Virus record (IMG/VR): IMGVR_UViG_3300035698_003823
Coordinates: 1-56,167 of that record
Direction: 5' to 3' (one strand)
DNA from: a virus
DNA: 56,167 nt
In this document: positions 24,509-48,493 of the stretch, piece by piece
Position numbering within the stretch: the stretch's first letter is position 1
Layout of the letters: every line of letters begins with the position of its first letter
Notes under the pieces: generated by a model
Seen by the model: the letters and a program-made list of their open reading frames with translations, nothing else
Told to the model about the DNA's origin: nothing
Databases searched by the model: none
Translations under genes and position numbers: made by a program

Positions 24509-25219
24509 ATGCCTAACGGTGTAACAGTCGGACGTTTCATGAATGAATTTATTTGTGAAGATCAAATATTGTCCGAAGAATCAAAAGAAACAGGTGATTG
24601 GTACATCGAGGGTATCTTCCTTCAGGGTGATAAACTCAATAGTAACAAACGTGTTTACCCTATTAGTGTTCTTGATAAGTCAGTTGAGCAATTTAACGAT
24701 CAAAGGATAAAGAAAAATATTGCCTGGGGTGAACTTGGACATCCAGATTCACCAAAGATTAATCTCGATAAGACTGCTGTATTGGTTACTAATCTTGTCA
24801 AGCGTGGTACTGACTATGTAGGTAAAGCAAAGGTATGCCACGAAGACTGTCCTATGGGTAAGATCCTACGTGGTCTACTTAAAACAGGTGGTAAGGTCGG
24901 AGTATCTTCCAGAGGACTCGGTTCTGCTGATCCTAAAGAGTGGGATAACGGAGAAGAATGCAATCTAGTTAATAAGTTCATAATGAGAGCGATTGATGTT
25001 GTTGCTGACCCTTCTGCTCCGGACGCTATGGTTGAATCTATCCAAGAAGAAAAAGAATATATTTTAGATGGTTGTAGTGGTAAGATCTACGATATGAACG
25101 AAGAAAACTATAAGATGTTCGAAAGTAGACTGAAGACTCTTCCAATTAAGAAAGAACAAAGTCAAGAGCAAGTTTTTGAAGCAATCAAGTCATTTCTTGG
25201 AAGTTTGAAGGGAGAGTAG
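24509..25219 (+). CDS. Prohead core protease (T4 gp21-like)
   Basis: A 236-residue serine protease of the herpesvirus/T4 prohead type. WGELGHP carries the catalytic His (residue 78), KVGVSSRGLGS the Ser (about 133-134), and DVVADPSAPDA is the conserved strand that follows. It would cleave scaffold, capsid and internal proteins at (L/I)xE sites during head maturation. It is followed at once by scaffold and capsid genes, as in T4. Confidence 0.9.
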   Translation: MPNGVTVGRFMNEFICEDQILSEESKETGDWYIEGIFLQGDKLNSNKRVYPISVLDKSVEQFNDQRIKKNIAWGELGHPDSPKINLDKTAVLVTNLVKRGTDYVGKAKVCHEDCPMGKILRGLLKTGGKVGVSSRGLGSADPKEWDNGEECNLVNKFIMRAIDVVADPSAPDAMVESIQEEKEYILDGCSGKIYDMNEENYKMFESRLKTLPIKKEQSQEQVFEAIKSFLGSLKGE

Positions 25220-26273: not shown

Positions 26274-26340
26274 GAATTAGACAATAAAGTTAATGGAATA
26301 CTTTATTTATATATTAGTTATTATTATGGAGGTTAACCCT

Positions 26341-27690
26341 ATGGGTAATCTAAACTTCGACTCCCTTATTGCAGATCCAAGGGCAGAAGTAATTGCAAGA
26401 TGGGACCGCGAAGGTTTCCTGGAAGGTATCGATGAGGGTAGTAAGAAAGCAACTACCGCTATGATCCTCGAAAACCAGTTCTCTTATCTTACTGAGAATG
26501 GTGGTACTTCTATTGCAGATGTATCTGTTATGAAGAAACTTACTATCCCTATGGTTCGTAGGGTATTCCCTGGTCTTATTGCACATGATCTCGTTGCAGT
26601 TCAACCTATGAATGGTCCTGTAGGACTTGCATATGCACTTCGCCGTCACCGTATTTCCGCTAATGGTGGTGTTGAAATTAATGGTGTTAGTTCAGATCCC
26701 GCCGATTCTAACTACCAAGCACCTGCATCTCGTTACTCAAACATCGAGGGTGATGTTGACAAGGCACAACCTAATGGTACTTGGACCGGACCTACATCTG
26801 GATACGCAGGTGAACGTGTTGGTGATGATTCTCGTCTGTTCAACAGTATTGAAAATGGTGGTGGTCCGACTACTTCCGATGCTCAAGAAGTTGGTATCAG
26901 TATCATCTCTAAGGAAATTCGCGCTTGGACTCGTAAACTACGTGCTCGTTTCCCAATCGAAGTACAACAAGATCTTAACGCAATGCACAATGTAGACATC
27001 CGTAGAGAACTTACTGATGTTATGAGTTACGAAATTACTGCTGAAATTGACCAAGAAGTTCTTAGTGCAATCAAGCATCGTGCTCAAGCAGGTGGTGGTT
27101 TCACTTGGACCTACAATAGTACTGCAGATGGTCGTTGGCAGATTGAAAAGTACCGTACTCTCATGACTGCTGTGAACATGGCTGCAAATGAGATTGCTGT
27201 TGCTAACCGTATTGGTGCAGGTAACTTCCTTATTGCATCTCCAAGAGTATGTGCTGTTCTTGAAGCACTTCCTGAGTTTACTATCTGGGAACAGAAAGCA
27301 AGTCTCAATACTTTCGGAACTGCCGCTCCTAACGCTTACATTGGTACTATCGGTCGTTTTAAGGTATACCGTGACATCTTTGCAACTACTGACTACATTG
27401 TAGTAGGATACAAGGGTACTAGTACTAATGATGCAGGTATCGTTTATGCTCCATACGTTCCTGTTATGTTTGACGAAGCGAAGGGTCCTGAATCCTTCCA
27501 CACCCACCTTGGTGTTATGACTCGTTATGCTATTATCTCTAACCTCTTTGGTTCTGAAAACTACTACCGCTACATCACTGTTAACTTCACAGGTGATATC
27601 GCAGATAGTACTGCCGGAAGTCCAGCAGGTGATCCGTTCAGTGACTATGAAACTACTCCACAGAGCGACGGTGCTGAAACTCAGGTGTAA
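26341..27690 (+). CDS. Major capsid protein (T4 gp23-like)
   Basis: A 449-residue HK97-fold capsid protein in the T4 gp23 class. The N-terminal region ends in YLTENG; cleavage after Glu52 would fit the (L/I)xE rule and gp23 maturation. MVRRVFPGLIAHDLVAVQPM and the late FGSENYYRY are typical. ATG 26341, with GGAGG upstream, is preferred to the longer frame from 26293. Codon use is noticeably more GC-rich than in neighbouring genes, as expected for very high expression. Confidence 0.92.
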   Translation: MGNLNFDSLIADPRAEVIARWDREGFLEGIDEGSKKATTAMILENQFSYLTENGGTSIADVSVMKKLTIPMVRRVFPGLIAHDLVAVQPMNGPVGLAYALRRHRISANGGVEINGVSSDPADSNYQAPASRYSNIEGDVDKAQPNGTWTGPTSGYAGERVGDDSRLFNSIENGGGPTTSDAQEVGISIISKEIRAWTRKLRARFPIEVQQDLNAMHNVDIRRELTDVMSYEITAEIDQEVLSAIKHRAQAGGGFTWTYNSTADGRWQIEKYRTLMTAVNMAANEIAVANRIGAGNFLIASPRVCAVLEALPEFTIWEQKASLNTFGTAAPNAYIGTIGRFKVYRDIFATTDYIVVGYKGTSTNDAGIVYAPYVPVMFDEAKGPESFHTHLGVMTRYAIISNLFGSENYYRYITVNFTGDIADSTAGSPAGDPFSDYETTPQSDGAETQV

Positions 27691-33921: not shown

Positions 33922-34281
33922 ATGTATACACTAGACAAAGACATAGGTAAGATACTTTATATTATAGACAATATAGATACAGGAAAATTTGGTATTTATA
34001 TTCCTAAGAATCCAGATACATTAGATAACGTTATAAATGTTGATTATGATATAACTCTGTTATCTCTTCAGATGTTTACAGATGGATTATTAAATAAACC
34101 TATACGTAAAATATGTAACTTATCAGCAATGTTACTTGAAAGTTACGATAGTGAAGATTACAGAATAGAATATAACTCATTTTTGTTGGAACGTGTATTC
34201 AGAAACAAGAACAAACTGACAGAAGATTTTTTAAATATTTTTATTGATTTGTTATATAAAGAAATTTATGGGGGTGAATAG
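33922..34281 (+). CDS. Hypothetical protein overlapping tmRNA 5' end
   Basis: A 119-residue protein. Its last four codons, including the TAG stop, are the first 12 bases of the tmRNA. It is helical in its second half. No family is recognised; the start has only a weak ribosome site. Confidence 0.55.
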   Translation: MYTLDKDIGKILYIIDNIDTGKFGIYIPKNPDTLDNVINVDYDITLLSLQMFTDGLLNKPIRKICNLSAMLLESYDSEDYRIEYNSFLLERVFRNKNKLTEDFLNIFIDLLYKEIYGGE

Positions 34282-34627
34282 GTATCGACTAGATGATGAA
34301 GAATAGAACTGCATGGAGAGGTTGATCGTAGGGACTCTTTAAAATACGATTAGAACAACAATTGCAAATACATACGCAATAGCGGCGTAGAAGTCGCACT
34401 GAAATTGACAAGGTAATAGCGTAGTCAAGATTAGGTTCATTACTCTATTTGACAAACCTGCAAAGACGGGTTGACTCTCAGGAAAGTGACTGAGCGTTTG
34501 GGGAATATCGAATAAAACCCAGAGGTAAGTCGGAACTACCAAGATCCAGAAATTTCCGGACAACCATGTAGATGTTTTATTTAGACTTATTTTAGGACTG
34601 GACTTTCGAATGTCCACACCTCCACCA
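34270..34627 (+). ncRNA. ssrA: Transfer-messenger RNA (tmRNA)
   Basis: A 358-base tmRNA. The 5' end GGGGGTG pairs with CACCTCC before A-CCA, with a G3-U70 wobble, the alanine identity element. The 5' segment GGTATCGACT matches the tmRNA consensus. At 34364-34390 the tag frame GCA AAT ACA TAC GCA ATA GCG GCG TAG encodes ANTYAIAA, close to the usual ...YALAA degron. It would rescue host ribosomes stalled on phage mRNA and tag products for ClpXP-type proteases. Confidence 0.93.
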
Positions 34628-34641: not shown

Positions 34642-34950
34642 ATGGCGTATAGTAGATGGTCTTGTTCTATTTGGTATACCTTCTGGGCAGTAACCCCAAA
34701 AGTGTGTATACCTCTTGAAGGTCCAGATCCACAAGAGGAACAATTTTGTGTAGATTGTGAATTATATTTTTCTTATAAAAATATCAAGAAAGATATGATG
34801 AACTGCATAAATAATGTTAGATACCATTATGAGTTCAAGTTAGATGTTGATAATGAAAATCGACCTTCTGATGAAGACTATAATGAACTTGAAGGTTACA
34901 TGCAGGAATTCGTTCTTGATGTAGAGAAAGAGTTCCCAGAAATAAAATAA
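34642..34950 (+). CDS. Conserved-looking phage hypothetical (MAYSRW family)
   Basis: A 102-residue protein starting MAYSRWSCSIWYTFW, an opening I recall from hypothetical proteins of several large phages. It has a Cys pair CVDC in the middle and an acidic helical C-terminus. AGGAGAGAAC precedes the ATG. Confidence 0.6.
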   Translation: MAYSRWSCSIWYTFWAVTPKVCIPLEGPDPQEEQFCVDCELYFSYKNIKKDMMNCINNVRYHYEFKLDVDNENRPSDEDYNELEGYMQEFVLDVEKEFPEIK

Positions 34951-36634: not shown

Positions 36635-36710
36635 GGAGAGTGAGCAGGTTAAGTAATTGCGTTCCCCTGAAAAGGGAAAGAATCCGGAGCGTTACCGGAA
36701 CTCTCCACCA
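36635..36710 (+). tRNA. tRNA-Phe (GAA), non-canonical elbow
   Basis: Acceptor GGAGAGT/ACTCTCC, D-stem GCAG/TTGC, anticodon arm TTCCC-CTGAAAA-GGGAA, CCA encoded. The T-loop is AGCGTTA and the D-loop carries AAGTAA with no GG, the same alternative elbow as Gln, Lys(TTT) and Ile(GAT). Confidence 0.88.
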
Positions 36711-36771
36711 AATTATTTTCCGAATGGTAAAGATTTAATATACATCATCATTGCATGTATCCTAAATAAGT

Positions 36772-36778
36772 ATAGTCT
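36772..36778 (+). promoter_or_regulatory. Late-like promoter CTAAATA
   Basis: CTAAATA lies 20 bases before the HNH start. The same box precedes the HNH genes at 37770, 40626 and 43362. Confidence 0.5.
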
Positions 36779-36798
36779 ATATTTATAAGGAGAAAACA

Positions 36799-37524
36799 AT
36801 GGCAATAGGTAAAAGAAAATCAAAGTATACAAGAGAGATACTTGAACCTTTGGTGCAAAATAATCTTTCTATGGTGTGTGTAATAAGAGATTTAGGTTTA
36901 AAACCTTCTGGTGGGAATCATTCAAATATATCGAGAATAATAAAAGAACTAAAAATAGATACTTCTCACTTTACAGGACAAGGACACCTAAAAGGTAAGA
37001 CTCATAACTGGACAAAATCAATTCCTTTAGAAGAAATACTTGTTGAAGATTCAAATTATAGTAGACATAATTTAAAGAAAAGATTATTAGAATTAGGTTT
37101 ATTACAAAATAAATGTTCAGAATGTGGAATATCAGAATGGAATGGAAAACACATTTCAATTCAAATAGATCATAAAAATGGTATTCATAACGATAACAGA
37201 ATAGAAAACTTGAGGATGCTCTGTCCAAATTGCCATTCTCAAACAGATACATTTTCAGGAAAATCAAACAAGCGAGAGAAAAATAAAAGGACAGTAAAAA
37301 TAAAAAAGATAATATGTCCAAGATGTTTAAAAAATTACAAAAATGAGAGATCAAAAGTTTGTATAGAATGTTACAAAAAATCTATTAAAAGAAAATTTGA
37401 TCCACCAATAAAAGAATTTAAAAATAAAATTGAAGAATTAAAAGGAAATATGTCTGCTGTTGGGAGATTCTATAAAGTTTCTGATAACGCAATAAGAAAG
37501 AGAATTCAAAAATATAATAATTAA
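36799..37524 (+). CDS. HNH homing endonuclease
   Basis: A 241-residue protein. The HNH core is CSECG...IDHKNGIHNDNRIENL..LCPNCH (residues about 108-150). An N-terminal helix-turn-helix-like region, a zinc knuckle CPRC...CIEC and the tail AVGRFYKVSDNAIRKRI follow the pattern of the three relatives here. The stop lies two bases before tRNA-Leu. Confidence 0.85.
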   Translation: MAIGKRKSKYTREILEPLVQNNLSMVCVIRDLGLKPSGGNHSNISRIIKELKIDTSHFTGQGHLKGKTHNWTKSIPLEEILVEDSNYSRHNLKKRLLELGLLQNKCSECGISEWNGKHISIQIDHKNGIHNDNRIENLRMLCPNCHSQTDTFSGKSNKREKNKRTVKIKKIICPRCLKNYKNERSKVCIECYKKSIKRKFDPPIKEFKNKIEELKGNMSAVGRFYKVSDNAIRKRIQKYNN

Positions 37525-37526
37525 AT

Positions 37527-37602
37527 GCGAGTGTGATGGAAAGGATTACATAATTGATTTAGAATCAATTTTTTGCAGGTTCGAATCCTGTCGCTCGTAC
37601 CA
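37527..37602 (+). tRNA. tRNA-Leu (TAG), short variable loop
   Basis: Acceptor GCGAGTG/CGCTCGT, D-stem ATG/CAT, anticodon arm ATTGA-TTTAGAA-TCAAT, T-loop TTCGAAT, discriminator A, CCA encoded. TAG reads CUA leucine codons. The variable loop has five bases, whereas leucine tRNAs are normally class II with a long arm (as at 49579). Confidence 0.8.
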
Positions 37603-37610
37603 AATTAAAT

Positions 37611-37683
37611 ATCGGGTAGTCTCTCATGGTGGGGGAACTGATTGCAAACCAGTTAAATTAAGGTTCGATTCCTTTACCCGATT
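37611..37683 (+). tRNA. tRNA-Cys (GCA)
   Basis: Acceptor ATCGGGT/ACCCGAT, discriminator T as expected for Cys, anticodon loop TTGCAAA in a stem with one A-C mismatch, T-loop TTCGATT. CCA is not encoded. Confidence 0.8.
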
Positions 37684-37728
37684 ATCTTTAAAAAAACTAT
37701 TATTGCACCCTTAATTTCATACTACCAT

Positions 37729-37736
37729 ACTAAATA
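37729..37736 (+). promoter_or_regulatory. Late-like promoter ACTAAATA
   Basis: ACTAAATA lies 33 bases before the HNH start at 37770. Confidence 0.5.
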
Positions 37737-37769
37737 CTAATGTATAGTTAAAAAGTATAGGAGATTAAT

Positions 37770-38498
37770 ATGGGTAATAAAAGTGTTTTCGAAAGTTACA
37801 CAAAAGAAGAAGTCCAGGATATGTTGAATGATTCTTCTTCATTTAAAAAAGTTTTAGAAAAGGTAGGACTTTCAACTAATGGAGGTGAATGTACCAGAAC
37901 ACTAAAAATGTATATATCTAAAAATAATTTAGATTTAACTGAATTAGAAATTAATAGAACTAGAGAAAGAAAAAGTTTATTAGTATATTGTTCAAGAGGT
38001 AAGAAAAGAAAAGATGAAGATGTTTTTGTTAAAGACTCAGATTACGCAAGAAAGCATATTAAGAATAGAATTATAAAACAGAAATTAATTCCATATGAAT
38101 GTAGTAATTGTGATATAAAAGACAAATGGAATAGTAAAGATTTAGTTCTTATATTAGATCATATTAATGGAATCAACAATGATAACAGAATAGAGAATCT
38201 TAGATTCGTTTGTCCTAATTGTAATAGTCAACTTGAAACTCATTGTGGTAAAAATAAAGCAATAAGAAAACATTGTAAAGATTGTGGAAAAATAATAACT
38301 AAAATGTCAGAAAGATGTAAAAAATGTAGTTGTGTTTTCCATGGTGTTAAACAAAGAAAATTTAATCCAAAATCAGAAGATCTTGAAAATAAAATTAAAG
38401 AATTAAATGGAAATATATGTGCTGTTGGAAGGTTCTATGAAGTTTCCGATAATGCAATAAGAAAGAGAATTAAAAAATTAAATATACCTATAGTGTAA
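37770..38498 (+). CDS. HNH homing endonuclease overlapping tRNA-Trp
   Basis: A 242-residue protein. HNH core CSNCD...LILDHINGINNDNRIENL..VCPNCN (residues about 111-150), zinc knuckle CKDCG...CKKCS, and tail AVGRFYEVSDNAIRKRI. The last five residues (NIPIV) and the stop are encoded by the 5' end of tRNA-Trp, an overlap of 15 bases. AGGAGATTAAT precedes the ATG. Confidence 0.88.
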   Translation: MGNKSVFESYTKEEVQDMLNDSSSFKKVLEKVGLSTNGGECTRTLKMYISKNNLDLTELEINRTRERKSLLVYCSRGKKRKDEDVFVKDSDYARKHIKNRIIKQKLIPYECSNCDIKDKWNSKDLVLILDHINGINNDNRIENLRFVCPNCNSQLETHCGKNKAIRKHCKDCGKIITKMSERCKKCSCVFHGVKQRKFNPKSEDLENKIKELNGNICAVGRFYEVSDNAIRKRIKKLNIPIV

Positions 38499-38557
38499 CG
38501 GTAACACGTTTCTCTCCAAAAGAAAAAATCAGGGTTCAAATCCTTGTGGGTGTGCCA
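38484..38557 (+). tRNA. tRNA-Trp (CCA)
   Basis: Acceptor ATACCTA/TGGGTGT (three wobbles), D-stem GTGT/ACAC, anticodon arm TTTCT-CTCCAAA-AGAAA, T-loop TTCAAAT, discriminator G, CCA encoded. Its first 15 bases are coding sequence for the HNH protein. Confidence 0.9.
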
Positions 38558-38566
38558 AAATTAAAT

Positions 38567-38638
38567 GGGGTGATAGTGACAACGGTAACACATTGCTTTT
38601 GCACGGCAAAGATTGGGGTTCGATTCCCCATCACTCCA
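38567..38638 (+). tRNA. tRNA-Ala (TGC)
   Basis: Acceptor GGGGTGA/TCACTCC with the G3-U70 alanine identity pair, anticodon arm TTGCT-TTTGCAC-GGCAA, T-loop TTCGATT. CCA is not encoded. Confidence 0.9.
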
Positions 38639-38720
38639 CATTTTTTAAAGTCATAACATCCGTAACTTCAACAACTTACGAAAAAGAATAAAAAAAGATT
38701 GATTAATTCTTATTTTTAAC

Positions 38721-38749
38721 TTGCAAAACTTTCTGGATTCTGTTATACT
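38721..38749 (+). promoter_or_regulatory. Sigma70-like promoter of the tRNA region (copy A)
   Basis: TTGCAA and TATACT are 17 bases apart, with AATTCTTATTTTTA directly upstream of the -35 box. A boxA lies 20 bases downstream of the -10. Confidence 0.85.
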
Positions 38750-38768
38750 TTAGATATAAAGATTAAGT

Positions 38769-38785
38769 TGCTCTTTGACAATTTA
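38769..38785 (+). promoter_or_regulatory. boxA-like antitermination element 1
   Basis: TGCTCTTTGACAATTTA differs at one base from the E. coli rRNA leader boxA region TGCTCTTTAACAATTTA. It follows a promoter, as in rRNA operons. Confidence 0.75.
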
Positions 38786-38857
38786 GAAGAAACAAGAATA
38801 AAAAAAGATTAATTATTTCTTATTTTTATCTTGCAAAACTTTCTGGATTCTGTTATA
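38772..38857. repeat. 86-base direct repeat, copy 1
   Basis: Identical to 39031-39116. It runs from boxA through the next promoter, so promoter-boxA units have been duplicated as blocks. Confidence 0.85.
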
Positions 38858-38859
38858 AT
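38831..38859 (+). promoter_or_regulatory. Sigma70-like promoter of the tRNA region (copy B)
   Basis: TTGCAA-17-TATAAT, same upstream element as copy A. It precedes a structured leader (38895-38953). Confidence 0.85.
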
Positions 38860-38894
38860 TAGAAGTATAAGAAACAGCGACAAACAAAAATTTA

Positions 38895-38953
38895 GTGAGT
38901 GAATCGGGACAGGTTATTGTACTAGATGCAATCAGCGACCCTTAGTAACTCAC
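38895..38953 (+). ncRNA. Putative structured leader RNA element
   Basis: GTGAGT and ACTCAC close a 59-base segment with an inner stem (ATTGT/GCAAT). A related segment at 41363-41426 shares GTGAGTGAA at the start and TTAGTAACTCA at the end. No known RNA family is recognised. Confidence 0.35.
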
Positions 38954-39017
38954 GCTCATTATCCGGAAGTTATCTGTACGCTTGGGTAACGCTTTGCGAC
39001 CTTGGCAAGATACTTTT

Positions 39018-39031
39018 AACTTCCGGAAGTT
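39018..39031. repeat. 14-base perfect palindrome AACTTCCGGAAGTT
   Basis: This is the longest instance seen of the dispersed TTCCGGAA motif. It abuts boxA element 2. Confidence 0.7.
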
Positions 39032-39044
39032 CTTTGACAATTTA
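39029..39044 (+). promoter_or_regulatory. boxA-like element 2
   Basis: GTTCTTTGACAATTTA, preceded by the palindrome AACTTCCGGAAGTT. A stem-loop just upstream of boxA recalls the boxB-boxA order of rRNA leaders. Confidence 0.7.
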
Positions 39045-39116
39045 GAAGAAACAAGAATAAAAAAAGATTAATTATTTCTTATTTTTATCTTGCAAAACTT
39101 TCTGGATTCTGTTATA
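39031..39116. repeat. 86-base direct repeat, copy 2
   Basis: Identical to 38772-38857. Confidence 0.85.
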
Positions 39117-39118
39117 CT
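39090..39118 (+). promoter_or_regulatory. Sigma70-like promoter of the tRNA region (copy C)
   Basis: TTGCAA-17-TATACT, followed after 20 bases by boxA element 3. Confidence 0.85.
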
Positions 39119-39137
39119 TTAGATATAAAGATTAAGT

Positions 39138-39154
39138 TGCTCTTTGACAATTTA
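39138..39154 (+). promoter_or_regulatory. boxA-like element 3
   Basis: TGCTCTTTGACAATTTA, identical to element 1. Confidence 0.75.
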
Positions 39155-39481
39155 TATGTTGGGTATAACATGGTTGGTTCAATTCCAACTACTCTCAAAC
39201 TTTTTATTGATTAATGACCTGCAATAGAATAATCGAAACTCAGGTATTGAACGAGTCTACTTAACGGTAGTGTTAAATAAGGTACTCACATTAATTAATG
39301 TTTTTAGCGAGAGATGAGGGTTCAAATCCCTTAGTGGTTTTGGGAATGCTTCTGTTCAAGCAATAATTCCCGTCTTATTTTTCTGGTAATTGAACAGATC
39401 AGAAATTAGAGATAAAATACCATCTGGTGTAACTTGGTTAGCACACTTGCGATATTTATTTAAAAAAGTTCCAAAAAGTTC

Positions 39482-39509
39482 TTGACTTAAAAAAAGTTCC
39501 TGATATAAT
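39482..39509 (+). promoter_or_regulatory. Sigma70-like promoter before tRNA-Ile(TAT)
   Basis: TTGACT-16-TATAAT. It is followed by a leader with TTTAGTTG/CAACTAAA pairing (about 39532-39616) and then a boxA-like sequence. Confidence 0.8.
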
Positions 39510-39531
39510 TAGAAGTATGAAAGTTAAGGAT

Positions 39532-39616
39532 GTGTTTAGTTGCTAAAATAATTCTAGAGCGTAGAAGCGATGAGATAAATTTACAAAGAGACTCATAACG
39601 TTTGTAACAACTAAAT
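39532..39616 (+). ncRNA. Putative structured leader
   Basis: TTTAGTTG near 39532 pairs with CAACTAAA near 39609, enclosing ATGAG/CTCAT. A similar AGTTG...CAACT closure occurs at 41829-41983. It sits between promoter and boxA-like element 4. Confidence 0.4.
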
Positions 39617-39622
39617 ACAATT

Positions 39623-39640
39623 TTGTTCTTTAAAGATTAA
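39623..39640 (+). promoter_or_regulatory. boxA-like element 4 (degenerate)
   Basis: TTGTTCTTTAAAGATTAA keeps the GTTCTTT core but diverges at the 3' side. Confidence 0.5.
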
Positions 39641-39646
39641 ATATCT

Positions 39647-39725
39647 GGACCGGAAAGTTTGGTTAACTCGACGAATCTTATAAGTTTGTGTCTGCATGAG
39701 GGTTCAATTCCCTATCGGTCTACCA
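39647..39725 (+). tRNA. tRNA-Ile (TAT)
   Basis: Acceptor GGACCGG/TCGGTCT, anticodon arm CGAAT-CTTATAA-GTTTG, T-loop TTCAATT, CCA encoded. TAT would read AUA codons, which AT-rich phage genes use heavily. The variable loop is longer than usual (about nine bases). Confidence 0.75.
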
Positions 39726-39734
39726 ATATTAAAA

Positions 39735-39752
39735 TTGTTCTTTGAAAATCTA
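39735..39752 (+). promoter_or_regulatory. boxA-like element 5
   Basis: TTGTTCTTTGAAAATCTA, three bases before tRNA-Lys. Confidence 0.65.
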
Positions 39753-39755
39753 TAT

Positions 39756-39831
39756 ACTTCTTAAGCATTAATTAGTGATGCATCAGACTTTTAATCTGAA
39801 GAAGACGGGGCAGTACCGTCAAGAAGTACCA
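39756..39831 (+). tRNA. tRNA-Lys (TTT), non-canonical elbow
   Basis: Acceptor ACTTCTT/AAGAAGT, D-stem GCAT/ATGC, anticodon arm TCAGA-CTTTTAA-TCTGA, T-stem GACGG/CCGTC, CCA encoded. The T-loop is GGCAGTA and the D-loop has TTAGTG with no GG. Confidence 0.88.
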
Positions 39832-39840
39832 AAATTAAAT

Positions 39841-39933
39841 GTATGTGAGACTACTATTGGTTGTGTAGTGAAGGATTGTAAATCCTTTCCCTTTGTGGTA
39901 ACATTGTTGGTTCGATTCCATCCACATACACCA
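39841..39933 (+). tRNA. tRNA-Tyr (GTA)
   Basis: Class II tRNA: acceptor GTATGTG/CACATAC, anticodon arm AAGGA-TTGTAAA-TCCTT, long variable arm, T-loop TTCGATT, CCA encoded. Confidence 0.9.
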
Positions 39934-40159
39934 AATTGAGTACAGAGAAACAGGTTGGATTCCTGTATATGTTAATCGCATATTCGTCCATTGTTAAGAC
40001 ACTGTACGTTATATTTAATCCGGAAGATATATTGCTTGAATGTCCGAGAATAACGAAGTCTTGGTATGCCCAAATCGCTTCAATATTCCATAAGAGTAAA
40101 GCAATAATGTGGTTCACAGGATAGTGGACGTTGAAGACAGATCCTTCTTGTCTTCCGGA
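39934..40159 (+). other. Intergenic RNA-like stretch in tRNA array
   Basis: No protein gene. It contains ACAGG-TTGGATT-CCTGT (a T-arm-like hairpin at about 39951-39967) and ATATG/CATAT, but no complete tRNA could be drawn. Confidence 0.4.
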
Positions 40160-40177
40160 TTGTTCTTTGAAAATTTA
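40160..40177 (+). promoter_or_regulatory. boxA-like element 6
   Basis: TTGTTCTTTGAAAATTTA, seven bases before the next tRNA. Confidence 0.7.
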
Positions 40178-40183
40178 GCAACT

Positions 40184-40257
40184 ACCTTGGTCGTATAAAT
40201 GGTAGAGTATAACCGGCTTGTGGTCGGTGGGCGGTGGTTCGATCCCACTCTGGGGAA
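40184..40257 (+). tRNA. tRNA-Thr (TGT) or, with a one-base shift, tRNA-His
   Basis: Acceptor ACCTTGG/CTGGGGA with an A-A mismatch at position 1; anticodon arm ACCGG-CTTGTGG-TCGGT reads TGT by position, though GTG is one base later. T-loop TTCGATC; no CCA. Seven more bases on each side (AGCAACT/AGTTGCT) could extend the helix. Confidence 0.6.
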
Positions 40258-40264
40258 GTTGCTT

Positions 40265-40282
40265 TTGTTCTTTGAAAATTTA
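40265..40282 (+). promoter_or_regulatory. boxA-like element 7
   Basis: TTGTTCTTTGAAAATTTA, identical to element 6, just before tRNA-Lys(CTT). Confidence 0.7.
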
Positions 40283-40285
40283 TAT

Positions 40286-40359
40286 GCATCCTTAATTCAA
40301 TGGTAGAATAATTGATTCTTACTCAATTAATGAAGGTCCGATTCCTTCAGGATGTACCA
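40286..40359 (+). tRNA. tRNA-Lys (CTT)
   Basis: Acceptor GCATCCT/AGGATGT, D-stem ATTC/GAAT, anticodon arm ATTGA-TTCTTAC-TCAAT, T-loop TCCGATT, CCA encoded. It reads AAG and complements tRNA-Lys(TTT). Confidence 0.85.
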
Positions 40360-40369
40360 AAGTTTATAT

Positions 40370-40446
40370 GCGGTTGTAGCATAATCGAATAATGCAACAG
40401 ATTTCTACTCTGTAGATTGCAGGTTTGAGTCCTGTCAACCGTACCA
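40370..40446 (+). tRNA. tRNA-Arg (TCT), A19-U56 elbow
   Basis: Acceptor GCGGTTG/CAACCGT, anticodon arm ACAGA-TTTCTAC-TCTGT, CCA encoded. The D-loop has GA instead of GG and the T-loop is TTTGAGT, so pair 19-56 is A-U rather than G-C. It reads AGA/AGG. Confidence 0.88.
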
Positions 40447-40455
40447 AATTAACAT

Positions 40456-40530
40456 TGGGGATTAGTATAGAAGTGAGTACGTCATACTGATAATGTGAAG
40501 AGACAGGAGCGTTACCTGTATCCCCTACCA
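40456..40530 (+). tRNA. tRNA-Ile (GAT), non-canonical elbow
   Basis: Acceptor TGGGGAT/ATCCCCT with a T-T mismatch at position 1, anticodon arm TCATA-CTGATAA-TGTGA, CCA encoded. The T-loop is AGCGTTA and the D-loop contains AAGTGA with no GG. Confidence 0.85.
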
Positions 40531-40594
40531 ATTTATTAAAAGTTGAACTTGTGAAATTCTTTTTACTTTTTTTGATAACTTTCTTATCTAAGGT

Positions 40595-40602
40595 ACTAAA
40601 TA
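40595..40602 (+). promoter_or_regulatory. Late-like promoter ACTAAATA
   Basis: ACTAAATA lies 23 bases before the HNH start at 40626. Confidence 0.5.
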
Positions 40603-40625
40603 CTTATATAAGAAAGGGGAAAGAA

Positions 40626-41186
40626 ATGAGTTATGAAGAAATTAAAAAGTTTAGAAGAAAGAGAAAAAAAGTTATTGTAGAATCTTTTGGAGGTAAGTGT
40701 GGTGTTTGTGGGTATGATAGTTTTTTCAATGCCTTAGATTTACACCATTTAGATTCATCTAAAAAAGAATTTAGTTTATCTTCAAATATTCAATCGTGGG
40801 AAAAGATTTGCAAAGAATTAAAAAAATGTGTAATGTTATGTGCTAATTGTCATAGAGAATTTCATGGAGGATTTATTGAGATTCCAAAAGATATAAGAAG
40901 ATTTGATGAAAGTTTTATTAGTTATTACACTAAAGAAGAAAGATTTTGTCCAGTTTGTAATAAAGATATAACAGATAAATCAATTAAACAATTAACATGT
41001 TCTCAGAAGTGTGCTGATGTTTATTTTCCGAACCGTTGTGTAAGGAAATTTGACCCTACTGAAGAAGAACTTATAAATAAAATAAAAGAATTAAAAGGAA
41101 ATATGTGTGCTGTTGGAAGGTTCTATAAGGTTTCTGACAATGCTATAAGAAAAAGAATTAAAGTTTTAAATGTCTCTGTAGTATAG
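40626..41186 (+). CDS. HNH homing endonuclease overlapping tRNA-Glu
   Basis: A 186-residue protein. The HNH core is CGVCG...LDLHHLD...VMLCANCHREFH. A zinc knuckle CPVC...CSQKC and the tail AVGRFYKVSDNAIRKRI follow. ATG 40626 (AAAGGGGAAAG upstream, after the late box) is preferred to GTG 40551. Its last codons and stop form the first 15 bases of tRNA-Glu. Confidence 0.88.
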   Translation: MSYEEIKKFRRKRKKVIVESFGGKCGVCGYDSFFNALDLHHLDSSKKEFSLSSNIQSWEKICKELKKCVMLCANCHREFHGGFIEIPKDIRRFDESFISYYTKEERFCPVCNKDITDKSIKQLTCSQKCADVYFPNRCVRKFDPTEEELINKIKELKGNMCAVGRFYKVSDNAIRKRIKVLNVSVV

Positions 41187-41248
41187 TGGTCAAATACGCT
41201 TGATTTTCAGTCAAGAGATCGCCCGTTCAAATCGGGTCAGGGATACCA
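41172..41248 (+). tRNA. tRNA-Glu (TTC)
   Basis: Acceptor GTCTCTG/CAGGGAT, D-stem GTAT/ATAC, anticodon arm CTTGA-TTTTCAG-TCAAG, T-loop TTCAAAT, CCA encoded. It overlaps the HNH 3' end by 15 bases. Confidence 0.9.
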
Positions 41249-41251
41249 AAT

Positions 41252-41318
41252 TACATAGCGAGTGTCCGGAATCTCATGAGTTCCGAAAGTAGGTTTGAAT
41301 CCTACCCTCGAAACCAAT
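41252..41318 (+). tRNA. Degenerate tRNA-Met-like gene lacking a D-arm
   Basis: Anticodon arm GGAAT-CTCATGA-GTTCC (CAT), T-arm GTAGG TTTGAAT CCTAC and a terminal A-CCA are intact. Only about 19 bases precede the anticodon arm, too few for acceptor plus D-arm, and the acceptor pairs at only four positions. It is likely a decayed gene. Confidence 0.5.
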
Positions 41319-41322
41319 TAGG

Positions 41323-41362
41323 AAGATATACATATTTCTAGTCAATTGATTGTCTATCTTCC
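41323..41362 (+). other. Hairpin GGAAGATA/TATCTTCC
   Basis: An eight-base inverted repeat with a 24-base spacer, directly before the second GTGAGTG element. It could be a processing or transcription signal; no T-run follows. Confidence 0.4.
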
Positions 41363-41426
41363 GTGAGTGAAAAAAGTTTCGATGAAATTCCTTGACCGGA
41401 AATACTCTGGAACTTTTAGTAACTCA
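41363..41426 (+). ncRNA. Putative structured RNA element, second copy
   Basis: Shares GTGAGTGAA at its start and TTAGTAACTCA at its end with the element at 38895-38953. Inside, AAAAGTT pairs with AACTTTT. The family is unknown. Confidence 0.35.
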
Positions 41427-41432
41427 AAATAT

Positions 41433-41508
41433 TGCGGGGAGGCTGTTGGTTTGCCCATAGTGCCTCATAAGCACTACTACGTGTGTTCGATTCACACCTC
41501 CGCTACCA
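41433..41508 (+). tRNA. tRNA-Met (CAT), initiator-like
   Basis: Acceptor TGCGGGG/CTCCGCT with T1-T72 unpaired, the hallmark feature of bacterial initiator tRNA (C1-A72 in E. coli). Anticodon arm AGTGC-CTCATAA-GCACT, T-loop TTCGATT, CCA encoded. The three consecutive G-C pairs of the classic initiator anticodon stem are only partly kept, so elongator Met is possible. Confidence 0.8.
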
Positions 41509-41516
41509 ATTTAAAT

Positions 41517-41592
41517 GCATCCGTGGTGCAACTGAATAGCACAAGACTCTACGAAAGTCTAGATGAGGGTTTGATTCCTTCCGGATGTACCA
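41517..41592 (+). tRNA. tRNA-Arg (ACG), A19-U56 elbow
   Basis: Acceptor GCATCCG/CGGATGT, D-stem GTGC/GCAC, anticodon arm AGACT-CTACGAA-AGTCT, CCA encoded. D-loop GA with T-loop TTTGATT gives an A19-U56 pair. A34 in ACG is normally edited to inosine by TadA. Confidence 0.88.
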
Positions 41593-41594
41593 TT

Positions 41595-41612
41595 TTGTTC
41601 TTTGACAATTTA
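41595..41612 (+). promoter_or_regulatory. boxA-like element 8
   Basis: TTGTTCTTTGACAATTTA, immediately after tRNA-Arg(ACG). Confidence 0.7.
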
Positions 41613-41623
41613 CATGAAGAGGT

Positions 41624-41668
41624 TACAATAATAATTTTTTACACTGGTTTGTTTTTTCTTATTATTGT
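41624..41668 (+). other. Long hairpin ACAATAATAA/TTATTATTGT
   Basis: A ten-base perfect inverted repeat with a U-rich loop lies between boxA 8 and the next RNA genes. Downstream, 41676-41739 has GGTGA...TCACC resembling a serine-type acceptor, but no complete tRNA could be folded by eye. Confidence 0.45.
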
Positions 41669-41749
41669 GGCAGTTAGATGGTGACGTTCCTGCGAACAGA
41701 ACCAAATCATGCTTGGGGGGAAACTCCTTTGCCTCTCACCATATTAAAT

Positions 41750-41825
41750 GCGTCCTTGGTGTTTAACGATAGCATGAAAGATTTCCAATCTTTTGGTAGC
41801 GGTTTGAATCCGCTAGGACGCTCCA
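41750..41825 (+). tRNA. tRNA-Gly (TCC), A19-U56 elbow
   Basis: Acceptor GCGTCCT/AGGACGC, discriminator T as expected for Gly, anticodon arm AAAGA-TTTCCAA-TCTTT, CCA encoded. D-loop GA with T-loop TTTGAAT. Confidence 0.9.
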
Positions 41826-41828
41826 TAT

Positions 41829-41983
41829 TACTAGTTGAACGGGAAGACAGAAACGTACAGGTGCTTCTTATCACAAGACTGTGACGGCAGAATAATCTTG
41901 GGAAGAATAAGTTGCATACACGGATTCCTTTACTATCCTCGATGTTGACGAAAATCGAGTCTATGGTATAAATCTGCCAACTA
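41829..41983 (+). ncRNA. Putative large structured RNA
   Basis: Nested inverted repeats close on each other: ACTAGTTG/CAACTAGT (outer), GGCAGA/TCTGCC, and CTCGAT/ATCGAG (inner hairpin). The 155-base segment has no reading frame worth calling and lies between two tRNA-Gly genes. It does not match RNase P, 6S or a hammerhead by eye. Confidence 0.45.
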
Positions 41984-41993
41984 GTTTATTTAT

Positions 41994-42067
41994 GCGGATA
42001 TAGTTCAATGGTAGAACTTATGTTTACCAAGCATAGAATGAGAGTTCGATTCTCTCTATCCGCTCCA
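41994..42067 (+). tRNA. tRNA-Gly (ACC)
   Basis: Acceptor GCGGATA/TATCCGC, discriminator T, D-stem GTTC/GAAC, anticodon arm TATGT-TTACCAA-GCATA, T-loop TTCGATT, CCA encoded. Anticodon ACC reads GGU. A34 in a bacterial-type glycine tRNA is rare. Confidence 0.85.
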
Positions 42068-42088
42068 TAACTTTACGAGGAACTTTAT

Positions 42089-42256
42089 ATGAAATCAGTA
42101 CAAGATCTACTTTGTAAGTTAGGTAAACATGATTGGGAAGAAATTAAACTTGTCAGTGAAGTTACTTATGATAAATCAAAAGTAAGAATCTGTAAGAATT
42201 GTATGACTTCTAATAAGTGTAAAGAGAAGAGAGAAGAATATACAGATTGGGAGTAA
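42089..42256 (+). CDS. Small Cys-containing protein (55 aa)
   Basis: A 55-residue frame starting MKSVQDLLCKLGKHDW, with ACGAGGAAC upstream. CKNC...NKCK could form a small zinc site. The stop is immediately followed by the next ATG. Confidence 0.6.
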   Translation: MKSVQDLLCKLGKHDWEEIKLVSEVTYDKSKVRICKNCMTSNKCKEKREEYTDWE

Positions 42257-42433
42257 ATGTGTATTGTAAAAGTTCCGATGACTGATCTTACTGATCTTAC
42301 TGATGGAGGAGAATTAAAAAGAATTTACGATTTATTTAAAAAAGAGATTGTATTTAAAAAAGAATATGATATAATAAGAAGTAAGAAAAGTTTGTTCAGT
42401 ATATTTAAAAGAAAAAGATATGGGAATGTATGA
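42257..42433 (+). CDS. Small basic protein (58 aa)
   Basis: A 58-residue frame starting MCIVKVPMTDLTD, directly after the previous stop and overlapping the next gene by 14 bases. The C-terminus is basic (IFKRKRYG). Confidence 0.5.
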   Translation: MCIVKVPMTDLTDLTDGGELKRIYDLFKKEIVFKKEYDIIRSKKSLFSIFKRKRYGNV

Positions 42434-42761
42434 TTCAGTAGTTTTTAAATGTACAGATCCAGAATGTCCTGAAGGTTGTGTAGAGTTTCAATCTAAAGTA
42501 GGTCCATGTACTTTAAATGAATATGATATAAGTGAAGTTCCTGCGTGTATTGCAGATGATATTTTTGAAACTTTCGGGTTTTGTTCAGAATGTGGAAAAA
42601 CTTATATGATCCACCATGAAGTAGAAATAGATCCTACTGTTAGAATGAAAGTTACTGAAGTTTTAGAAGAACCTTATAAGTGTATTAATTGTAACCGTAA
42701 TATGTATATGACAGGAAACGGTTGTTACAAGTGTGCATTTTGTGAAAGTTACAATGGATGA
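42420..42761 (+). CDS. Zinc-ribbon protein (113 aa)
   Basis: A 113-residue protein starting MGMYDSVVFKCTDPECPEG, with CSECG, CINCN and CYKCAFC further on: three Cys pairs, likely two zinc ribbons. The MGMYDSV opening recurs in small phage proteins of unknown function. Confidence 0.65.
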   Translation: MGMYDSVVFKCTDPECPEGCVEFQSKVGPCTLNEYDISEVPACIADDIFETFGFCSECGKTYMIHHEVEIDPTVRMKVTEVLEEPYKCINCNRNMYMTGNGCYKCAFCESYNG

Positions 42762-42790
42762 AAGTTCCGGAAGATTTTGGAGGAGAAACA

Positions 42791-43006
42791 ATGAAAGAAT
42801 TTGAAATGACTCAAGAGCAATTTGATGAAATTATTGATGCTTGTAAAACAGTCCCTATGATTATGATACAGCGTGGGAATACAAGAACCAAACAAGAAAA
42901 TGCTAATGATGCTTGGGAAAGACTTGGGAAAGTTATGGGGTTTAATCACATGTCTGTGAAACCTTCCGGAAGTGACCTAAAGAAATTCTTTGCAGACGAA
43001 GTTTAA
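42791..43006 (+). CDS. Conserved-looking small phage protein
   Basis: A 71-residue protein starting MKEFEMTQEQFDEIIDACK, with TTTGGAGGAGAAAC upstream. WERLGKVMGFNHMSVKP resembles a small phage protein family of unknown role. An upstream in-frame ATG at 42758 lacks a ribosome site. Confidence 0.65.
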   Translation: MKEFEMTQEQFDEIIDACKTVPMIMIQRGNTRTKQENANDAWERLGKVMGFNHMSVKPSGSDLKKFFADEV

Positions 43007-43015
43007 AAATTAAAT

Positions 43016-43090
43016 ACCGCTTTAGTTCAACGGTTAGAACAAATCATTGTCGATGATTAGATAAGGTTTCGATTACCTTAAGCGGTGCCA
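43016..43090 (+). tRNA. tRNA-Asp (GTC)
   Basis: Acceptor ACCGCTT/AAGCGGT, D-stem GTTC/GAAC, anticodon arm AATCA-TTGTCGA-TGATT, T-loop TTCGATT, discriminator G, CCA encoded. Confidence 0.92.
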
Positions 43091-43115
43091 ATATTAAAGA
43101 AGTATAAGAATTAAA

Positions 43116-43190
43116 CAGAATGTAGTCTAGTGGTAAGACGCAAAATTTGGGTTTTTGAGATCGTGGGTTCGAGTCCCTCCATTCTGACCA
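43116..43190 (+). tRNA. tRNA-Pro (TGG)
   Basis: Acceptor CAGAATG/CATTCTG, anticodon arm CAAAA-TTTGGGT-TTTTG, T-loop TTCGAGT, CCA encoded. Confidence 0.9.
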
Positions 43191-43212
43191 TATTAGTAGT
43201 AAAGGATTACAT

Positions 43213-43283
43213 TCCAGTTTAGTATAATGGTATTATAAAATTCTGTTAAAATTAAGATCGAGGTTCGATTCCTTGAACTGGAG
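43213..43283 (+). tRNA. tRNA-Asn (GTT), copy 1
   Basis: Acceptor TCCAGTT/AACTGGA, discriminator G, anticodon loop CTGTTAA in an AT-only stem with one mismatch, T-loop TTCGATT. CCA is not encoded. Confidence 0.8.
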
Positions 43284-43301
43284 AAATTTTAAAAAATGTT
43301 C

Positions 43302-43348
43302 CTAAAAGTTCGAATCTATCCCCTAAATACAATTAGATAGATTCGAAC
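43302..43348. repeat. 16-base inverted repeat around a late-like promoter
   Basis: AAAGTTCGAATCTATC and GATAGATTCGAACTTT flank a 15-base loop containing CTAAATA. The HNH ribosome site AGGAG lies just after. It could end tRNA transcripts and hide the HNH ribosome site until late transcription starts inside the loop. Confidence 0.7.
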
Positions 43349-43361
43349 TTTAGGAGACATA

Positions 43362-44072
43362 ATGAAGTATACTAAATTAGAACATGGATATATATTAATA
43401 TGGGCAAAGAAAATAGCATATTTAAATAGTAAAAATTGGAAATGTGAAAAGTGTAATAAGAGTGTTATTATAAGTGATTTTGATGTTCATCATTTAAGAG
43501 ATAAAGAGATTGAAATAAAACAAGTCTGGGGATTATCTTCTGATGAAGCGAAGAAAGAATTGGATAAATGCATATTAGTATGTTCAAAATGTCATAGAAA
43601 AATACATTATATAAAACAAGGTGTTAGTAAAAAAAGAGAAAAAGCAAGAGAAATACTTTTTAAGTATAAAGGTAATAATAAATGTGAAGGGTGTAAAGTA
43701 AAGTTTGATTTTATAGATCTTTGTTTTCACCACACTAAACCAGAAAATAAAAAATATAATATATCAAGAGAAATAAATTATAATAGATATCAATCTATCG
43801 AGAAAGTTCAGGAAGATTTACTAGAAGAATTAGACGATTGTGATGTTTTATGTTTTACTTGTCATAGAAAAATACATTTTGATTTTGAAAGATTTGAAAA
43901 TTATAAAGAAGAAATTTATAGAAGAATTAAGTCTTATAAACCTCAAAAGAAATTAAATCATAAGGAAGTTAAAAAATTATTTGATGGAGGTTTAAGACAA
44001 ATTGATATAGCAAGAAAATTAGATGTTAATAAATCTACTATATCAACTATATTAAAGAATTATAAAAAATAA
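43362..44072 (+). CDS. Tandem-HNH endonuclease
   Basis: A 236-residue protein with two HNH units: CEKCN...DVHHLRD...CSKCHRKIHY (about residues 27-86) and CEGCK...CFHHTKPENK...CFTCHRKIHF (about 108-175). The C-terminus LRQIDIARKLDVNKSTISTIL is a resolvase-type helix-turn-helix, unlike the AVGRFY tail of the other HNH genes. The stop is two bases before tRNA-Asn. Confidence 0.85.
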   Translation: MKYTKLEHGYILIWAKKIAYLNSKNWKCEKCNKSVIISDFDVHHLRDKEIEIKQVWGLSSDEAKKELDKCILVCSKCHRKIHYIKQGVSKKREKAREILFKYKGNNKCEGCKVKFDFIDLCFHHTKPENKKYNISREINYNRYQSIEKVQEDLLEELDDCDVLCFTCHRKIHFDFERFENYKEEIYRRIKSYKPQKKLNHKEVKKLFDGGLRQIDIARKLDVNKSTISTILKNYKK

Positions 44073-44074
44073 AT

Positions 44075-44150
44075 ACCATTGTGCGAGACTCGATAATCGT
44101 GCGTCCTGTTAAGACGTTATATCTAGGTTTGAATCCTAGCAATGGTGCCA
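44075..44150 (+). tRNA. tRNA-Asn (GTT), copy 2, A19-U56 elbow
   Basis: Acceptor ACCATTG/CAATGGT, D-stem CGA/TCG, anticodon arm GCGTC-CTGTTAA-GACGT, CCA encoded. D-loop GA with T-loop TTTGAAT. It differs strongly from copy 1. Confidence 0.88.
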
Positions 44151-44153
44151 ATT

Positions 44154-44227
44154 TCTGGAATATTAGTGTAATGGTCGCACAGGCAGGGGTATCTCAGCAA
44201 AGAACGGTTCGATTCCGTATTCCAGAC
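44154..44227 (+). tRNA. tRNA-like gene without a recognisable anticodon stem
   Basis: An eight-base acceptor TCTGGAAT/ATTCCAGA, a D-arm GTGT/GCAC and a T-arm ACGG TTCGATT CCGT are present. The 17 bases where the anticodon arm should be (GGCAGGGGTATCTCAGC) do not pair. It may be a decayed or interrupted tRNA. Confidence 0.45.
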
Positions 44228-44237
44228 CTAGTTACAT

Positions 44238-44308
44238 GCCGGATTATTTCAATGATAGAATGATTGTTTCGTAATCAATAGACAGGGGTTCGATACCTCT
44301 ATCCGGAT
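44238..44308 (+). tRNA. tRNA, anticodon TTC by position (Glu?)
   Basis: Acceptor GCCGGAT/ATCCGGA (mismatch at position 1), anticodon arm TGATT-GTTTCGT-AATCA, T-arm AGGGG TTCGATA CCTCT, no CCA. The loop reads TTC; TCG (Arg) is possible with a one-base shift. The D-loop is GA but the T-loop keeps C56, so the elbow pair is broken. Confidence 0.6.
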
Positions 44309-44356
44309 TATCTTTAATAATGTTTGTTATAATATCCAATTTAAATAAATTAAATT

Positions 44357-44426
44357 CTCCGTGAAGCATAATGTTTGATGCACTACTCTTGTAAAGTAGA
44401 GAAGCAGTTAGATTCTGACACGGAGA
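44357..44426 (+). tRNA. tRNA-Thr (TGT), U19-A56 elbow
   Basis: Acceptor CTCCGTG/CACGGAG, D-stem GCAT/ATGC, anticodon arm CTACT-CTTGTAA-AGTAG. D-loop GT with T-loop TTAGATT gives U19-A56. The T-stem pairs at only three positions; CCA is not encoded. Confidence 0.78.
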
Positions 44427-44537
44427 TCCATTTTCAATCCGGAATCTTACGGTATTTATTAAAGTTTTTGAGTTAATGTACTTTGATAAGTTTCCACCGA
44501 AGGACTGTAAGATTCCGGATATTTACTAGGAAATATT

Positions 44538-44927
44538 ATGAATGATACAAATCTTGAAGTGTTTGTAATTGAAAACAGTAAAGGTGAATATTTTTCTAAA
44601 GAAAGATATAGTAGAATTAATTGGGAAGAAAATATTAAACGAGCAAAGATATATCAATTGCTTGGTTCTGCCAGAGGTAAGGTAACTTCTATAACGAATA
44701 GAAATCCGGAAGATAAGGCATCTTGTATTATTAAACTCACTGTAACATCAACAGAAAGACTTGATGAGACTGAACGTTTAAAGAAAGTTAAGATTAAAAA
44801 GAAATTAGAAATAGCAAAACGATTGGAACGAAAAAAGAAGTTTCAATTAGAGGAAGCAGAAAGAGAACTAAAAGATGCTCAGAGAGTACTTAATGAATTG
44901 AGTAGTGGAGAAATGAATATAACATGA
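44538..44927 (+). CDS. Coiled-coil hypothetical protein
   Basis: A 129-residue protein with an N-terminal beta-rich part and a long charged helix from about residue 75 (RLKKVKIKKKLEIAKRLERK). TAGGAAATATT precedes the ATG. The stop overlaps the next start by four bases. Confidence 0.6.
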   Translation: MNDTNLEVFVIENSKGEYFSKERYSRINWEENIKRAKIYQLLGSARGKVTSITNRNPEDKASCIIKLTVTSTERLDETERLKKVKIKKKLEIAKRLERKKKFQLEEAERELKDAQRVLNELSSGEMNIT

Positions 44928-45112
44928 AACCTAGAATGATTTTAGATGCTGATAAAGATCTGGATGGTTATTCAATGATCAGAAGGGCAGGAAGTATCCT
45001 GAGTGCTCATGGATTCAAAAAAGAGTCTAGAGAGATTCATAAGAAAGCAAAGATGGAAGACTATGATATTTATGTTGCATACATTCTCTTGAAGGAATAC
45101 ATGGACATATGA
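44924..45112 (+). CDS. Small hypothetical protein
   Basis: A 62-residue protein starting MKPRMILDADKDLDGYS, translationally coupled to the gene before (ATGA overlap). Mostly helical. No family is recognised. Confidence 0.55.
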   Translation: MKPRMILDADKDLDGYSMIRRAGSILSAHGFKKESREIHKKAKMEDYDIYVAYILLKEYMDI

Positions 45113-45190
45113 GTATTAATTATAAACAATCTTGGTTGGCAGTAGAAGATCAAATATGAAACTTGATGATATGAATGAGTATGACAAATA

Positions 45191-45385
45191 ATGAAAAAAG
45201 TAAAATGTCCATATTGTGATAATGAAATGCAAACTGATGATCTTTTTGTTTGGTATTGTCTACATTGCTTGGAAAAACATAGATGTCCAGAGTGTGATGG
45301 TACAGGTGATGGTGGACCTGTAATGGGATGTATGTGTAAGAAGTGTCATGGAAGTGGTATGATTAAACCAAAGGAGGGAGAATGA
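45191..45385 (+). CDS. DnaJ-type zinc-finger protein
   Basis: A 64-residue protein with CPYCDNEM, CLHC, then CPECDGTGDGG and CKKCHGSGMI. The CxxCxGxG repeats match the zinc centre of DnaJ chaperones without the J-domain. It may bind unfolded protein or nucleic acid. Two very small overlapping frames (45109-45192) precede it and are not called. Confidence 0.7.
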   Translation: MKKVKCPYCDNEMQTDDLFVWYCLHCLEKHRCPECDGTGDGGPVMGCMCKKCHGSGMIKPKEGE

Positions 45386-45840
45386 TTAGGATACATAAGT
45401 CAGAAACAGCAGATACAAGATCATGTGACTGTACTAAGGTTACTCTAAAAGAACTAAAGCGTTCGTCTAGTAGTCATATTATAGATGTTTATAATGGTTT
45501 GAGGTTCTTTAGAAATATGCTTGAAGGTGCTTCTTTATTGCATGATGTAGATAAAATGACTGATTTGGATTCTTTCCATTCGGACTTTCTAACAGGGTTT
45601 AAGAAGCATGAATGGTGGGATAATCACCGGAAGATTAACAGGCACCACTTGACTAAAGAAGATGGTATTCCTGAAGATGTAAACTTGGTAGACGTTCTGG
45701 AATATATTACTGATTGTACTATGGCAGGAATGGCGCGAACAGGTGAGGTATACGATCTGGGTCTTCCTGATGAGTTGCTACAGAGAGCATTTAAGAACAC
45801 ATGTAAACTACTGAAGGATAATGTGGAGGTAGAAGAATGA
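45382..45840 (+). CDS. HD-like conserved phage protein
   Basis: A 152-residue protein starting MIRIHKSETADTRSCD. SHIIDVYNGLRFF, LLHDVDKM, WWDNHRKINRHHL and VLEYITDC place His/Asp residues as in HD-type metal-binding phage proteins (DUF5662-like). Probably a metal-dependent phosphohydrolase, but inactive variants exist. It overlaps both neighbours. Confidence 0.65.
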   Translation: MIRIHKSETADTRSCDCTKVTLKELKRSSSSHIIDVYNGLRFFRNMLEGASLLHDVDKMTDLDSFHSDFLTGFKKHEWWDNHRKINRHHLTKEDGIPEDVNLVDVLEYITDCTMAGMARTGEVYDLGLPDELLQRAFKNTCKLLKDNVEVEE

Positions 45841-46013
45841 ATAAAATAGAAGAAGATGTTATTAAATATTTTAAAGAAAACAAATGGAAAGATATTATAG
45901 ATGTTTGTGAAGATCTTGATATAAGATTAGAAGAAGCACATACTATTGTTAAGAAACTAGTTTCGAATGATGTTTTGGTTGGGCGTGAAGATGTTGTAAA
46001 GAGTAATGTATAA
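45837..46013 (+). CDS. Small winged-helix-like protein (58 aa)
   Basis: A 58-residue frame starting MNKIEEDVIKYFKENKWKD, overlapping the previous stop (ATGA). The pattern helix-helix-'LVSNDVLVGRED' resembles a minimal winged helix. Its TAA stop is followed in frame by a further 48 codons. Confidence 0.55.
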   Translation: MNKIEEDVIKYFKENKWKDIIDVCEDLDIRLEEAHTIVKKLVSNDVLVGREDVVKSNV

Positions 46014-46381: not shown

Positions 46382-46393
46382 TGGAGAAATAAT

Positions 46394-46621: not shown

Positions 46622-46683
46622 AATTACTTGGACGTACTGAAAAATCAATTAGAGTTAGATTATGTAGGTTAAATAAATCTTAA
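46622..46683 (+). pseudogene. Homing-endonuclease tail relic
   Basis: A short frame encodes KLLGRTEKSIRVRLCRLN before a stop. GRT..SI..R is typical of the DNA-binding tail of several homing endonucleases. No start or catalytic part is present. Confidence 0.35.
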
Positions 46684-46704
46684 AATATTAATTGGGAGAG
46701 AGAA

Positions 46705-48484: not shown

Positions 48485-48493
48485 GAGAAAATG

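Follow-up and report, generated by a model that had tools for sequence, protein, structure and literature searches.

In bacteria, tmRNA releases ribosomes that have stalled and marks the incomplete proteins they carry with a tag for destruction. The bacterial one-piece form (ssrA, Rfam RF00023) has tRNA-like ends with a G3-U70 pair, a pseudoknot before the tag, a tag ending in AA, and CCA at its 3' end. Among phages, tmRNA has been reported in 402 of 18,146 genomes (PMC9004378). Mycobacteriophage Bxz1 and its relatives and Bacillus phage G are large phages with a complete tmRNA (PMC4131195), the T4-like methylophage Melnitz (an OM43 phage) has a two-piece tmRNA (PMC9004378), and for the tag-less tmRNA of mycobacteriophage DS6A an inhibitory effect on E. 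coli tmRNA has been reported (PMC4131195, PMC11915505).

A test of seven T4-like isolates found permuted tmRNA in Stenotrophomonas phage Moby (MN095772) and Synechococcus phage S-CAM1 (KU686194), in both cases among tRNA genes. A weaker permuted tmRNA (RF04321, 76.6 bits), which ARAGORN also calls, was found in Xanthomonas phage X1 (OQ427096). No tmRNA is annotated in the stretches viewed of the public records of Moby and S-CAM1. Phage tmRNA is already established, T4-like phages included, and the gene described here adds one.

The DNA analysed (the window) is a 56,167-base IMG/VR virus record that is probably a genome fragment. Its tmRNA gene shares each of the above features of the bacterial one-piece form, from which it differs in being phage-borne and in having an 8-residue tag ending in AIAA and an 8-nt T loop. 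Like Bxz1 and phage G, the window phage carries a complete tmRNA, but it belongs to another, T4-like lineage. Melnitz, Moby, X1 and S-CAM1 resemble it in combining T4-like head genes with a tmRNA; however, their tmRNAs are permuted (RF04321, RF01850, RF01851), whereas that of the window has the standard order. In contrast to the DS6A RNA, it retains the tag and, before it, a pseudoknot.

Identification of the tmRNA gene

The window contains a complete phage-borne one-piece tmRNA gene of 358 nt, with CCA encoded, at positions 34270–34627 of the plus strand. RF00023 matches it over its full length (91.9 bits, E = 1.6e-34, all 374 model positions, 1–374), well over the gathering cut-off of 47 bits. 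The initial annotation, made from the sequence alone, had placed a complete phage tmRNA at exactly these coordinates and had named a covariance-model search as a check; the match confirms it. The order of the gene is unpermuted, and the permuted models RF04321, RF01850 and RF01851 have no match anywhere in the window. A minus-strand open reading frame (ORF) across the gene (34339–34617) matches no family, and a search for its relatives found none.

The acceptor stem is formed by GGGGGUG (34270–34276, plus strand), which includes G3 of G3-U70, and CACCUCC, which is followed by the discriminator A73 and CCA (together 34617–34627, plus strand). All 7 of its pairs are formed, and the G3-U70 alanine signal and the encoded CCA noted at the outset are both present. 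The T loop, UUUCGAAU (approximately 34604–34611), has 8 nt in place of the usual 7. ARAGORN called no tmRNA at 34270–34627; the T loop was considered as the cause of this and the idea dropped, because ARAGORN also misses the gene of a related phage, G003, in which the T loop is normal.

Pseudoknots and tag reading frame

Pseudoknots were located with a custom H-type pseudoknot scan and compared with dinucleotide shuffles. Pseudoknot 1 (34316–34351, plus strand; RNA nt 47–82, placed by the scan at nt 45–84) lies 5' of the tag and consists of S1 GAGAG/CUCUU and S2 GAUCGU/ACGAUU. None of 200 dinucleotide shuffles was as stable; the pseudoknot-rich fold whose absence would have spoken against the initial annotation is therefore not absent. 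In the four full-length RNAs (the window and its relatives G003, G012 and G013, described below) it occupies the same place with 44 of 44 pairs formed, while 10 of its 11 pair positions vary. That every pair forms despite this variation indicates that the structure is under selection. A probable pseudoknot 2 (UUGAC/GUCAA and GGUAAU/AUUACU; 34405–34444, plus strand; RNA nt 136–175) has counterparts in G003 and G013, which differ in sequence but have matching RNA coordinates; in the window the best score of this region is not above its shuffles. By eye, a hairpin H5, GCGGC-GUAGAA-GUCGC (approximately 34382–34397, plus strand), holds the stop codon in its loop, as do equivalent hairpins, also found by eye, in G003 and G013.

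The tag frame, ANTYAIAA followed by a UAG stop, starts at RNA nt 95 (34364–34390, plus strand) and was read as first annotated; its DNA is GCA AAT ACA TAC GCA ATA GCG GCG TAG, i.e. 8 codons and a stop. Each of the four full-length RNAs has an A at position -4 relative to the resume codon. The corresponding base of E. coli tmRNA, A86, is the main determinant of the frame (PMC2481249). The likeness to, but not identity with, YALAA tags that had been pointed out earlier is real: a single residue separates the tag from the ANTYALAA of genuine bacterial tmRNAs.

DNA encoding ANTYAxAA-type tags was sought in 84,980 genomes and matched nine times, eight of the matches lying inside ARAGORN tmRNAs. ANTYALAA or longer forms occur in tmRNAs of Bacteroidota, Prevotellaceae among them, and WOR-3, and ANTYAFAA in that of one Elusimicrobia MAG. 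ANTYAMAA was observed in tmRNAs of two MAGs labelled Methanobrevibacter (contigs L035, 3516–3866, and L042, 3023–3373, both minus strand); these are perhaps misbinned bacterial contigs, since tmRNA in archaeal MAGs may reflect misbinning (PMC11915505). A search of IMG/VR for the exact DNA of the window tag gave no match. Strong Shine-Dalgarno sequences are a mild argument against a Bacteroidota host.

Genomic context

The window encodes a T4-type major head protein (phrog_138; 26293–27690, plus strand) and an S77 prohead protease, also a T4-type head gene (24509–25219). The best matches of the head protein in public phages are only about 35% identical, and the lineage therefore has no earlier member among the isolates. 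Neither the tmRNA nor a 24-kb stretch matched any public phage in DNA searches. Near the head genes a 1029-residue protein (16008–19097) combines DUF6267 with a cytidylyltransferase-like domain.

Upstream of the tmRNA, an ORF of 119 residues (33922–34281, plus strand) overlaps the RNA gene by 12 bases. The initial annotation took these bases to be the end of a protein gene; the overlap stands, but no relative of the ORF was found in IMG/VR, and it may not encode a genuine protein. Downstream, an ORF of 102 residues (34642–34950, plus strand) is preceded by a Shine-Dalgarno sequence, AGGAGA, a few bases past the CCA. Searches for relatives of this ORF and of an RNase H-like exonuclease found none. 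A promoter-like TATAAAGA 7 nt 5' of the tmRNA was set aside, as TATAAATA-type sites are common in the AT-rich window.

Further 3' lies a cluster of at least 21 tRNAs called by ARAGORN (36635–51300, plus strand), to which Rfam adds candidates at 40456–40527 and 44238–44308. The cluster is interrupted by HNH endonuclease genes (36799–37524, 37770–38498, 40551–41186, 43362–44072 and 49583–50245) and contains a gene for an RtcB-type RNA ligase (46705–47862), which perhaps repairs cleaved tRNAs.

Conservation in related phages

The head protein, used to find relatives, is 77–82% identical in 15 IMG/VR contigs, and a second, alignment-based scan gave the same 15 loci. A homologous RNA lies 6.4–7.6 kb downstream of the head gene in four of these relatives. 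In three it is a full-length RF00023 gene: G003 (112.7 bits), G012 (86 bits) and G013 (74.9 bits, in a record of 191.8 kb), at 6.7, 7.6 and 7.1 kb from the head gene respectively, compared with 6.6 kb in the window. That three related phages have full-length homologues in the corresponding position upholds the claim that the tmRNA is phage-encoded. A further match to the tmRNA 5' pattern (L033) was rejected, as it is without an RF00023 match and resembles protein-coding sequence.

The four full-length copies are roughly 62–71% identical overall. G3-U70 is kept in all five RNAs, and the other acceptor pairs change with compensation. The tags of the relatives are NATLALAA (G003), GEELAQAA (G012) and GETLALAA (G013), each of 8 codons with two terminal alanines. 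ARAGORN misses the tmRNAs of the window, G003 and G013 and gives G012 a wrong tag, VPNVQVAAL, which was rejected because GEELAQAA occupies the homologous position.

The proteins flanking the tmRNA show no convincing relationship between relatives; the RNA has therefore been retained while its neighbourhood changes. An upstream ORF enters the RNA gene by 10–33 bases in three of the five phages, and in the window, G003 and G006 an AGGAG resembling a Shine-Dalgarno sequence stands no more than a few bases past the CCA. This placement suggests that the RNA may be co-transcribed with its neighbours and then processed. No tmRNA was found in G004 and G008, which reach 7.0–7.8 kb past the head gene, and the gene is therefore not essential to the group.

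In the fourth relative, G006 (IMGVR_UViG_3300009149_004092), the RNA is only 140 nt long (1594–1733, minus strand), 6.4 kb after the head gene; as numbered in L010 this locus is 10388–10527 (plus strand), and in L023 1501–1640 (minus strand). Identity to the window tmRNA is 92% over the first 24 bases and 80% over the last 45, and the RNA has both tRNA-like ends, G3-U70 and CCA, with an unusual T loop (AUCAUUC). It is too short to accommodate the pseudoknots, lacks a tag frame that ends in AA, and scores 38.7 bits on RF00023 (E = 1.8e-12), below the cut-off. It thus resembles the DS6A tmRNA in having tRNA-like ends without a tag. The G006 RNA is based on one contig, and some metagenome assemblies are known to contain large internal deletions as artefacts (PMC11915505).

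Discussion

The gene is best explained, with a probability of about 0.77, as a functional one-piece phage tmRNA that is charged by the host, rescues ribosomes and tags proteins. It would be transcribed together with its neighbours, adjoining the phage tRNA cluster, and its ends then trimmed. Host AlaRS would charge it with alanine via G3-U70, and SmpB and EF-Tu of the host would bind the charged RNA. A search for SmpB (PF01668) was negative for the window, the 191.8-kb relative and three further relatives, records that may be incomplete, and positive for 10 of 14 control genomes, all bacteria among them; the phage tmRNA would therefore use the SmpB of the host. It would enter ribosomes stalled on broken mRNA in infection, where alanine and ANTYAIAA would be added to the incomplete protein before termination at UAG. 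Ribosomes would thereby be kept recycling for the benefit of the phage, and the incomplete proteins would be marked for host proteases, probably ClpXP. The extra T-loop base, the rejection by ARAGORN and the absence of the gene from G004 and G008 are points against this explanation.

Such recycling and competition with the host tmRNA were the two roles offered by the initial annotation; both are inferences, and the sequence is compatible with either. As competitor, the phage tmRNA would load SmpB, and through its different tag would alter what becomes of tagged proteins or how much of them there is, instead of only increasing the capacity for rescue. The window tag does differ from its nearest bacterial counterparts (ANTYALAA), the tags vary strongly among relatives, one of them ending in AQAA, and a tag-less version stands at the same place in G006. 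Yet the tags retain an xAA ending, and neither the pseudoknot nor the frame-setting base has been lost, as would be expected for ordinary tagging, and we regard competition as unlikely to be the main role.

Less likely again is a passenger or decaying copy from a bacterium, without present function. The 8-nt T loop, the occurrence in only some relatives and the loss of the tag in G006 are what decay might leave, but four diverged copies, with frame and stop intact, show covariation in pseudoknot 1 and in the acceptor stem, and the tmRNA stays while its neighbours turn over. Although tmRNA genes are often integration sites of genomic islands (PMC11915505), it is most improbable that an integrating phage carries the gene as part of an attachment site from host ssrA: the gene is full length, it is internal to a T4-like genome and next to a tRNA cluster, and relatives have inherited it about as far from the head gene.

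Alongside the preferred reading of the window gene as a functional tmRNA, it is conceivable, if rather doubtful, that one locus alternates between a full tmRNA (the window, G003, G012 and G013) and a tag-less RNA (G006) that would occupy SmpB and block host trans-translation. If this were true, related phages would boost or suppress ribosome rescue from one site. Together with DS6A, the G006 RNA makes two phage cases in which inhibition of trans-translation by phages can be tested.

The present analysis describes a further phage lineage, uncultured and T4-like, in which a one-piece tmRNA is conserved. Given the genes missed by ARAGORN and those left unannotated in Moby and S-CAM1, tmRNA in T4-like phages has probably been under-counted.
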